Of a stretch of DNA of 64,000 nucleotides, positions 32,164 through 35,099 are shown in pieces. Below the pieces are notes generated by a model. That model ran no database searches, was not told where the DNA came from, and worked only from the letters and a program-made list of their open reading frames with translations. Origin of the DNA: an uncultured Cytophagales bacterium (GTDB lineage: Bacteria; Bacteroidota; Bacteroidia; Cytophagales; Cyclobacteriaceae); assembly GCA_913057175.1 (NCBI GenBank), contig CAJXNP010000013.1, positions 62,001 to 126,000 of the forward strand, read 5' to 3'. How positions within the stretch are numbered: the first letter of the stretch is position 1; the number at the start of each line of letters is the position of its first letter. The translations under genes and the position numbers were made by a program.

Positions 32164-32988
32164 TTAATGTTCAAGGAAATTGATCAAATGCCCTCGATAG
32201 TGATAGTAATCAGGATGTTCGATCACTTCTCTTCTCGTTCGTGGTCTTTCAAGTGGAATTTCTAAAATATCTCCAACAACCGCTCTCGGACCGGAGGTCA
32301 TCATGATCACCCGATCGGCAAGGAATATGGATTCATCCACATCGTGGGTAATCGCGATGGCAGTGATATTTTCTTTATTCCAGACTTCCAGCAAGACATC
32401 CTGAAGTTCAGCTCTTGTCAAAGAGTCCAGCATTCCAAAGGGCTCATCCAGCAAAAGGATTTTTGGTTTTAAAGCAAATGCCCGTGCAATTCCAACCCGT
32501 TGCTGCATTCCCTGACTTAGTTCGGATGCTTTTTTATTGAAGGCATCGCCTAATCCAACCTTATCAAGGTAATATTTGCAAATGTCCAGCCGGTCATTTT
32601 TAGATCCATGTGGAAATACCTGTTCCACTCCAAGTAATACATTTTCCAAAGCGGTCATCCATGGAAAGAGACTGGGCGACTGAAAAACAACTCCACGATC
32701 CGGACCTGGTTTGGTAATGGGTTTGCCATCCAGCAAAATTTCGCCTTCTGAGATATCATTCAACCCTGCAATCATGGTGAGTAGGGTGGATTTGCCGCAT
32801 CCGGAATGTCCGATGATAGAAATAAATTCTTCCTTCATCACCTGAAGATTCAGTTTTTCCAATACCACATATTCTCCCTTTGGGGTTGTGTAAATTTTTG
32901 TCAGATCTTTGATGTCCAGCATTACTTTTTTATCGGAAATTTCTTTCTCAGTAGCAATCGGAGCTTCTTTTATGGCTATTTCACTCAT
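32164..32988 (-). CDS. nrtD: nitrate/nitrite-type ABC transporter ATPase (NrtD-like)
   Basis: A 274-residue ABC ATPase with Walker A GHSGCGKST, signature LSQGMQQR and Walker B ILLLDEPFG, of the NrtD/SsuB/TauB type. The pattern PDRGVVFQSPSLFPWMTALENV is typical of the nitrate, sulfonate and cyanate importers. It is the last gene of the porin-nrtABCD series, 11 bases after nrtC. It would pair with NrtC to drive import through NrtB. Confidence 0.9.
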   Translation of the reverse strand: MSEIAIKEAPIATEKEISDKKVMLDIKDLTKIYTTPKGEYVVLEKLNLQVMKEEFISIIGHSGCGKSTLLTMIAGLNDISEGEILLDGKPITKPGPDRGVVFQSPSLFPWMTALENVLLGVEQVFPHGSKNDRLDICKYYLDKVGLGDAFNKKASELSQGMQQRVGIARAFALKPKILLLDEPFGMLDSLTRAELQDVLLEVWNKENITAIAITHDVDESIFLADRVIMMTSGPRAVVGDILEIPLERPRTRREVIEHPDYYHYRGHLINFLEH

Positions 32989-32999
32989 TTGTATTCAGT

Positions 33000-33881
33000 T
33001 TAGAAGTATTTTAATTTATCCTCTTCTTTTCTCTTTCTGAAGGTCTTGCCCGGCATAATGGGTTTTAGCTCAGGCAGCCGGTAATTGGTCGTCTTTTTCG
33101 TCTTGACCTCGGCGCCCATATCCATCAGATATTCTATGATGTCATTTCTCGTTTTCTTGTATTCTTCATTGTCATTGAGTTCGGTTTTATCCCTTGGCCT
33201 CTCAATATCAATCCTGAATTCAGGACCCAAAGTAGCATTTGGACCGGTTGTAAGTGGAATGATCCGGTCAGCCATTAAGATCCCTTCATCAACATCATTG
33301 GTGATTAACAAAGCCGTTCGTTTGTCCTTCGTCCAGATATTGATGATTTCTTGCTGTAAAGTTCCACGTGTCAAAGCATCCAAAGCGCTCAATGGTTCAT
33401 CCATCAAAAGCATCTCGGGATTCATGGCAAGCGCTCTCGCTACCGAAACCCGCTGGCGCATTCCTCCTGATAACTCTGCGGGTCTTTTGTTAAGTGCAGG
33501 GGTCAGGTTCACCATTTCAATGTATTTCCTGGTGTGGATGTCTTTTGTTTCTTTCGTCCAGTCGGGATACCTTTCATTTACAGCCAGGGCAACATTTTCA
33601 TAAACTGTAAACCATGGAAGCAATGAGTAATTTTGAAAGACCACACCTCGTTCGTGACTGGTTCCAGTGACGGGATTCCCACGAAATAGAATTTCTCCTT
33701 CGTCGGGTGATAAGAGGCCCGAAATCATTTTTATCAGGGTTGTCTTTCCACTTCCCGTGAATCCGACAATTGCCAGAAATTCACCTTCTTCCATCGAAAG
33801 ATTGATGTTTTTCAATACTTCGGTACGGTATTTTCCTTCACCAAATCCTTTCGATACATTATGTAATTCAAGTAGTGCCAT
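33000..33881 (-). CDS. nrtC: second ATPase of the nitrate-type ABC transporter (NrtC-like, no fused binding domain)
   Basis: A 293-residue ABC ATPase with Walker [10 protein letters not shown], signature LSGGMRQR and Walker B MLLMDEP. Cyanobacterial NrtC carries an extra C-terminal solute-binding domain of about 380 residues. Here there is only a basic tail of about 40 residues ([14 protein letters not shown]...RKRKEEDK). The nucleotide-binding half-sites therefore come from two different gene products. It is separated from nrtB by a 198-base spacer with tandem repeats. Confidence 0.88.
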
Positions 33882-34007
33882 TTCTTTTCAGTTATAAGTG
33901 TTTGTTTAAGCAGGGTGCAGAGCGCAAAGAGCACAGGGTCAAGGTGAAAGCTCAAAGCTGAAAGGAAAAAGTTGCGGGTTGCTGGTTGCGAGTTGGCGCT
34001 TCAATCC

Positions 34008-34079
34008 GCCCAATCTCCCCAATGCCCGATTCCCAATGCCTAATTCCCAATGCCCAATGCCCAATGCCCAATCTCCAAT
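34008..34079 (-). repeat. CCCAATG tandem repeat between nrtB and nrtC, G-quadruplex-capable
   Basis: The spacer after the nrtB stop carries a 7-base repeat. Four perfect units (34046-34069) read GGGCATTGGGCATTGGG... on the transcribed (minus) strand, that is four G3 tracts with 4-base loops, and further degenerate GGG units follow. The other half of the spacer (33910-34000) is another low-complexity stretch (AGCGCAAAGAGC, GTTGCGGGTTGCTGGTTGCG). No gene is present. Confidence 0.75.
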
Positions 34080-35099
34080 TTACGCTATCGTCTTTTTATC
34101 AAAACTCACCAGCTTCTGCAACTCAACCATGATCCTGTCGAGAATGAAACCAATAATTCCTACCGTAAAAACGGCCACCATAATTCTCGCGAGAGACTGG
34201 CTGCTGCCGTTCTGGAATTCGTCCCAGACAAATTTACCCAGTCCTGGGTTTTGAGCCAGCATCTCAGCGGCAATCAATACCATCCACCCAACACCAAGAG
34301 AAATTCTCAACCCAGTGAAAATGAGGGGTAGAGTAGCGGGAAGAACAATTTTGAAGGTTTTCTTCGTTGGTGATAGTTGCAGCACTTTAGCTACGTTGAT
34401 GTAGTCTTCATTCACTGATGAAACACCTAATGCTGTGTTGATTAGCGTTGCCCATAATGAGCACAATGAAACCGTGATAGCTGATATGATAAAGGACTTT
34501 TCCAGCCAGCCGTCATTCGTGACATAAACAGCGCTGACAATCATCGTAACAATGGGAAGCCAGGCAAGAGGTGAAACAGGCTTGAATACCTGGATCATCG
34601 GATTCAGTGCCTGCATAATTTTTTTGCTTAACCCACAGATAATTCCGATGGGCAATGCGATCAGCGAGGCGATTAAAAATCCCATAAAGACTGTTTTGAG
34701 GCTGGTGAAAATTTGATCGATGTAGGTAGGTTTGCCTGTATAATCCACCACCCGGATATTTGCATTTGGGTTTTTAGCCAATTTGGCTGCATTCCGGGCA
34801 TCCTGCCTGGCATAAAATTCATCTGCTTTGATCCTCTCATCGACATGTTCTGCCCAAAGTGCTTTAGTTTGTTCCCATACCATTGCAGGGCCTGGTACTT
34901 GCCCCAGGCTAGTGTCGATTTGCTTAGCGCCAAAATGCCATATTAATAAGAAAGTGACAATGGCAATAAGTGGTATTCCAACTGTTCCCCAAATTTCTTT
35001 TAGTTGTTCTAAAACTTCTTCTCCTGAGAATAGCTTGACGAATGGGATGCCCCATTTCATCCCGGTTACACTACATAATTTTAATGCGATAGCTTTCAT
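34080..35099 (-). CDS. nrtB: nitrate-type ABC transporter permease
   Basis: A 339-residue inner-membrane permease. After TM1 (IPLIAIVTFLLIWHFGAK) there is a large charged insertion of about 50 residues (HVDERIKADEFYARQDARNA), then the binding-protein-dependent transport domain with the EAA-type loop (INVAKVLQLSPTKKTFKIVLPATLP). The insertion is usual in NrtB proteins with separate ATPases. The stop codon directly abuts the tandem repeat. NrtA lies upstream, 87 bases away. Confidence 0.9.
   Translation of the reverse strand: MKAIALKLCSVTGMKWGIPFVKLFSGEEVLEQLKEIWGTVGIPLIAIVTFLLIWHFGAKQIDTSLGQVPGPAMVWEQTKALWAEHVDERIKADEFYARQDARNAAKLAKNPNANIRVVDYTGKPTYIDQIFTSLKTVFMGFLIASLIALPIGIICGLSKKIMQALNPMIQVFKPVSPLAWLPIVTMIVSAVYVTNDGWLEKSFIISAITVSLCSLWATLINTALGVSSVNEDYINVAKVLQLSPTKKTFKIVLPATLPLIFTGLRISLGVGWMVLIAAEMLAQNPGLGKFVWDEFQNGSSQSLARIMVAVFTVGIIGFILDRIMVELQKLVSFDKKTIA

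Follow-up and report, generated by a model that had tools for sequence, protein, structure and literature searches.

Within the window analyzed here, namely, the whole 64,000-nucleotide stretch of DNA from an uncultured Cytophagales bacterium, an nrt-like cassette is found on the minus strand. In the order in which they are read, the genes and the elements lying between them are:

34080..35099, minus strand: nrtB-like permease gene (339 aa); best match to TIGR01183, below cutoff
34008..34079, minus strand: heptamer array of the ATTGGGC family (family A), its G-rich strand being the coding one, as seen in the sequence; TRF score 91
34046..34069, minus strand: strict quadruplex motif (GGGCATT)3GGG, GGGCATTGGGCATTGGGCATTGGG, from a G3-N1-7 motif scan
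34009..34034, minus strand: second, looser quadruplex motif, GGGAATCGGGCATTGGGGAGATTGGG, from the same scan
33971..33998, minus strand: second heptamer block, AACCCGC family (family B; GTTGCGG on the plus strand)
33941..33965, minus strand: third heptamer block, TTTGAGC family (family C; AAAGCTC on the plus strand), with TTTGAGC/TTTCAGC units
33910..33939, minus strand: fourth, degenerate heptamer block, TCTGCNC/TTTGCNC family (family D; GCAGAGN on the plus strand)
33882..33909, minus strand: A-rich leader before the nrtC start codon, seen in the sequence
33000..33881, minus strand: nrtC-like ATPase gene; best match to TIGR01184, below cutoff
32164..32988, minus strand: nrtD ATPase gene; TIGR01184, above cutoff

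Judged by sequence, the cassette would encode an ABC transporter of the nitrate/CmpABCD type, with nitrate being the likely but not certain substrate. The substrate is uncertain because nrtB and nrtC score under the NCBIfam curated cutoffs (168 of 209 bits and 267 of 292 bits, respectively) and only nrtD scores above.

The G-rich array directly adjoins the nrtB stop codon (TAA, 34080-34082) on the coding strand. Read along the minus strand from position 34079, it comprises the units ATTGGAG, ATTGGGC, ATTGGGC, ATTGGGC and ATTGGGA, and then continues to position 34008 as ATTAGGC, ATTGGGA, ATCGGGC, ATTGGGG, AG and ATTGGGC. This confirms the earlier description of a repeat that starts at the nrtB stop codon, is G-rich on the coding strand and contains four GGG tracts separated by identical loops, followed by degenerate units. 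The array presents the top tandem-repeat score of the window (91, TRF) and contains both of the G3-N1-7 motifs that the entire window has. Given this score and the 0 strict period-7 arrays obtained in shuffled sequence, a chance origin was ruled out. Overlooked in the first-pass annotation were the three further heptamer blocks (33910-33998) that share the 198-bp nrtB-nrtC spacer, nearly all of which consists of heptamers from the four families A, B, C and D, with the A-rich leader being the sole clearly non-repeat part. A search of Rfam yielded no match, except for one that was far under threshold and outside the repeat, ruling out a known structured RNA as the identity of the spacer.

Comparison of homologous loci, by gap length alone, revealed the nrtB-nrtC gap to be 198 nt here, as opposed to a median of 16 nt in 85 homologous loci, of which a minority presented long gaps (about 80-247 nt). 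For G007 and G019, which belong to the same family, the gaps are 1 and 17 nt, respectively, while at the locus showing the greatest similarity among those found (nrtB 72% identical, in a Bacteroidia MAG), the gap is 20 nt. With homologous spacers at the 85 loci being mostly short, the idea that the repeat at this locus was inherited from a common ancestor was rejected on the basis of gap length. Absence of the repeat from close relatives, considered earlier as evidence against a regulatory role, was thus borne out in part, in that the repeat would not fit into most homologous spacers, in relatives that were all from other genera. Across the order, the heptamer families are sporadic, with CCCAATN being found in 7 of 59 genomes, GTTGCNG in 12 of 98 and GCAGAGN in 4 of 98.

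The distribution of heptamers was considered in a sample of about 2 Mb of the genome, part of which was picked because it bears repeats, with genes being called by a simple ORF rule. Since a 13-letter pattern was counted 15 times in the window versus 11 times expected, array statistics were relied upon instead. Strict period-7 arrays numbered 15 in the 2 Mb sample and 0 in shuffled sequence. In a test that made no use of family definitions, 57 intergenic and 10 coding arrays were detected at lag 7, as compared to 2-13 intergenic arrays at each of the other lags from 6 to 11, and to 0-2 arrays in shuffled controls for period 7. Seven is, therefore, the dominant intergenic tandem period in the sample, such that period 7 is over-represented in intergenic DNA, as in the general class of heptamer simple-sequence repeats. 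Indeed, all four families of the nrtB-nrtC spacer recur across the genome as degenerate arrays. At three or fewer mismatches in three units, 20 intergenic and 3 coding arrays were found for family A, 41 and 5 for B, 16 and 7 for C, and 23 and 1 for D; the corresponding controls with reversed patterns gave 3 and 1 (A), 3 and 1 (B), 1 and 5 (C), and none (D), with the families far exceeding these controls at 2-3 mismatches. When islands were called using a loose 4-mismatch setting, which lets in some chance arrays, several families were found in one spacer in 34 of 91 islands. The lengths of period-7 arrays, moreover, differ between genomic copies.

Islands are not placed at random relative to genes. 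Of 66 islands, 25 start 10 bp or less from a stop codon, as compared to 7.4 expected upon random placement in the same spacers; the same test applied to start codons gave 3 of 60 islands versus 5.3 expected. Arrays next to stop codons are also similarly oriented within each family, at ratios of 15:1 for B+ (GTTGCNG), 8:1 for D+ (GCAGAGN), 7:1 for A- (ATTGGG) and 5:0 for C+ (AAAGCTN), family signs having been set after inspection of the stop-adjacent arrays, with G-type denoting the stop-adjacent orientation. Where the first and last arrays of an island differ in type, the G-type array comes first and the C-type array last in 17:0 cases. In the family-free test, G exceeded C on the sense strand at a ratio of 14:2 in period-7 arrays near stops and of 251:245 in ordinary spacers, used as control. 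In G081, a genome of another genus, the bias recurs, with B+ arrays lying next to stops at a ratio of 16:3; the orientation bias was absent from the smaller samples of G053 and G017/G024.

The nrtB-nrtC array probably represents one block within a composite, stop-anchored heptamer island grown by slippage, of a kind dispersed in this Bacteroidota-type genome, with its quadruplex capacity probably being incidental. According to this scenario, 7-bp units would multiply by slipped-strand duplication in the spacer just past the stop codon, presumably because little else is constrained there. Slipped-strand growth of the array is plausible, given that period-7 arrays vary in length throughout the genome. 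The resulting islands would be either tolerated or would serve as generic 3'-end RNA elements. A layout of G-type followed by C-type arrays would allow transcripts to fold back, such that some islands, namely, those containing GTTGCNG inverted pairs, may have become hairpins of a generic, terminator-like kind at 3' ends. As for the nrt operon, a normally short nrtB-nrtC junction would have been stretched by the island, and the array is probably incidental there. Counting against this explanation, some islands sit between divergent genes or far from any stop codon.

Alternatively, the island could be a partial terminator or attenuator, relying on an intrinsic hairpin or on Rho loading onto its C-rich half, and so lower expression of nrtCD relative to nrtAB with no quadruplex involved. 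Such activity would fit with islands being located at stop codons, being relatively common in convergent spacers (18 of the 80 islands, with 87 of the 678 ordinary spacers being convergent) and rare in divergent ones (8 of 80 versus 157 of 678), and with the second part of the nrtB-nrtC spacer being C-rich (39 C and 17 G in 120 nt). In G081, moreover, GTTGCNG forms B+B- inverted pairs in the same order in 9 of 9 cases, often from the stop codon onward, with the eight pairs that were folded giving z values of -4.5 to -9.5. At the nrt locus itself, however, the hairpin predicted for the full spacer is not more stable than those of shuffled sequences (z +0.37), arguing against selection of the spacer as a hairpin, and a stable hairpin leading into a T run, as expected of an intrinsic terminator, was not found within the spacer. 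A strong terminator in an ABC transporter operon would, furthermore, lead to a shortage of the ATPases unless a second promoter were present, and none of the sigma-70 type was found in a scan that does not cover Bacteroidota promoters. Termination or attenuation at this site is, accordingly, considered unlikely.

Elsewhere, inverted GTTGCGG pairs were observed between convergent genes in G081 (L233, 9995-10065; L235, 8534-8621 and 10542-10616; and L234, 2092-2202). These pairs fill the spacer nearly from stop to stop, and the predicted hairpin is very stable; such pairs may provide both flanking genes with their sole terminator.

The first-pass annotation had proposed that a quadruplex, of RNA or DNA, might form between nrtB and nrtC and reduce nrtCD expression relative to nrtAB, a suggestion that now appears quite improbable. 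The sense strand does contain the perfect (GGGCATT)3GGG motif and, when the 72-nt array RNA is folded in isolation using ViennaRNA, two quadruplexes are preferred (-15.2 kcal/mol with quadruplexes, -3.0 kcal/mol without). Oligonucleotides of related repeats, (GGGGATT)4 among them, are reported to fold as quadruplexes in K+ (PMC4692102), while another study describes how nitrate assimilation in Paracoccus denitrificans is affected when a ligand stabilizes a quadruplex located in the nas promoter (PMC5123632), although that quadruplex lies in a promoter and not in an operon-internal spacer. By contrast, when RNA of the whole spacer is folded using the same model, the predicted optimum contains no quadruplex (-60.6 kcal/mol either way) because the G tracts pair with the downstream C-rich blocks. 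Given this and the unexceptional stability of the hairpin, neither structure looks selected at this spacer, as far as can be predicted. Nor is quadruplex capacity maintained within the repeat family, with only 3 of 28 intergenic CCCAATN (family A) arrays containing the motif. As the other families are mostly incapable of forming quadruplexes, this capacity is not the property that the islands share. Homologous nrtB-nrtC spacers are, as noted above, mostly too short for the repeat, and enrichment of quadruplex motifs across the genome was ruled out, with 8 being found in the 2 Mb sampled and 6 in Markov sequence. The array can, therefore, be described as quadruplex-capable in terms of predictions for the isolated sense RNA, but not in terms of the full-spacer fold or of most family members. 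Beyond the motif itself, a quadruplex switch specific to nrt finds no support; quadruplex potential would instead be a by-product of the unit sequence, rather than a dedicated means of nrt control.

Finally, that a length-variable repeat tunes or phase-varies nrtCD through slippage is very unlikely, despite the near-perfect 7-bp units and the differing lengths of genomic copies, since the array lies between complete genes, such that slippage leaves the reading frames unchanged, and since the Xanthomonas and Nostoc counterparts lie beside general metabolic genes, with phase variation being judged unlikely in that report (PMC4692102).

The stop-anchored heptamer island thus remains the preferred explanation, and the array probably belongs to a known kind of bacterial repeat and is not a special nitrate-transport switch, given that the genome contains dozens of seven-base patches like it, which often follow a stop codon and are mostly incapable of forming quadruplexes. 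In Cyanobacteria, STRR sequences are short tandem heptamers, such as CCCCAAT, that are dispersed in the genome. The islands considered here are alike in form, in being dispersed short tandem heptamers, but occur in another phylum. In Xanthomonas and Nostoc, dispersed quadruplex-forming heptamers (GGGNATC or GGGGA(C/T)T) are described as following a stop codon on the coding strand at 50 bp or less, sometimes overlapping it, or else as preceding a start codon on the non-coding strand; they are rare between divergent genes, include some inverted pairs and had no function found (Rehm et al., 2015; PMC4692102). The repeats described here are similar in having a 7-bp G-rich unit, in being dispersed and mostly intergenic, in following stop codons on the coding strand, in seldom lying between divergent genes and in including some inverted pairs. 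Indeed, the nrtB-nrtC array is a tandem of at least two 7-bp units with a GGG tract, its family has many dispersed copies (in 2 Mb, 20 that are intergenic and 3 that are coding, at three or fewer mismatches), and it lies directly past a stop codon in the orientation favored 7:1 by stop-adjacent copies. On the other hand, the phylum differs, the unit is ATTGGGC, several mostly non-quadruplex families share islands and polarity here, and most copies lack four GGG tracts, these being present in the array yet in only 3 of 28 intergenic copies. The units, moreover, read GGGCATT or GGGAATT, with one GGGAATC, and so depart from the consensus GGGNATC or GGGGAYT. Because of these last two differences, namely, in consensus and in the preference for four G tracts, the array was assigned to the general class of intergenic heptamer repeats.

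TAACTGA heptamers and mixed heptamer assemblages have been described in Beggiatoaceae, Cyanobacteria and Bacteroidetes, with Gramella, Aequorivita and Elizabethkingia presenting several heptamers per spacer and close relatives of some such Bacteroidetes having shorter spacers without obvious repeats (MacGregor, 2015; PMC4679880). Intergenic heptamer arrays, several heptamers per spacer and short spacers in relatives were likewise seen here; unlike TAACTGA, which in that study mostly lies just upstream of start codons (Beggiatoaceae, Flexibacter), other units are involved and these mostly follow stop codons. Heptamers were also identified as the commonest long simple sequence repeats, with polymerase slippage being proposed (Mrazek et al., 2007, cited by both PMC4679880 and PMC4692102). 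This is a statistical class, with composite islands and polarity not being described in the passages considered.

It is possible, albeit doubtful, that the heptamer families, although unrelated, belong to a single system with a shared, quadruplex-independent grammar, being stop-anchored, with G-type arrays first and C-type arrays last. If so, a strand-aware process at gene ends would create or keep islands, candidates being the termination of transcription, hybrids of RNA and DNA, or a protein that reads 7-nt repeats, and islands would be 3'-end elements of many genes. The observations suggest that the stop-anchored, strand-oriented placement reported for quadruplex heptamers extends to non-quadruplex heptamers, which points away from the quadruplex and toward a process connected with gene ends and with the 7-nt periodicity, one that is testable with existing genomes and RNA 3'-end data. 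Strand-linked polarity across unrelated heptamer families is the aspect that deserves follow-up.

Several individual arrays were also noted. In G016, long near-perfect GTTGCAG arrays (L249, 9473-9556, and the end of L250) include one at a contig end, suggesting that assemblies break at heptamer arrays. The longest lag-7 array in the sampled part of the present genome (G000) spans 118 bp on contig C1 (L209, 15276-15393) and consists of about 16 units of the GTTGCNG family. On contig C23 of G000 (34654-35063; L230, 14654-15070), copies containing GTTGCTGGTTGCTTGTTTC are spaced 132 bp apart (34654, 34786 and 34918), constituting a higher-order repeat made of heptamers. Lastly, three islands combining GATTACN and CCCAATN lie in the same orientation within 2.5 kb on contig C18 of G000 (L218, 15153-15219, 16471-16578 and 17605-17686), and may be local duplications.
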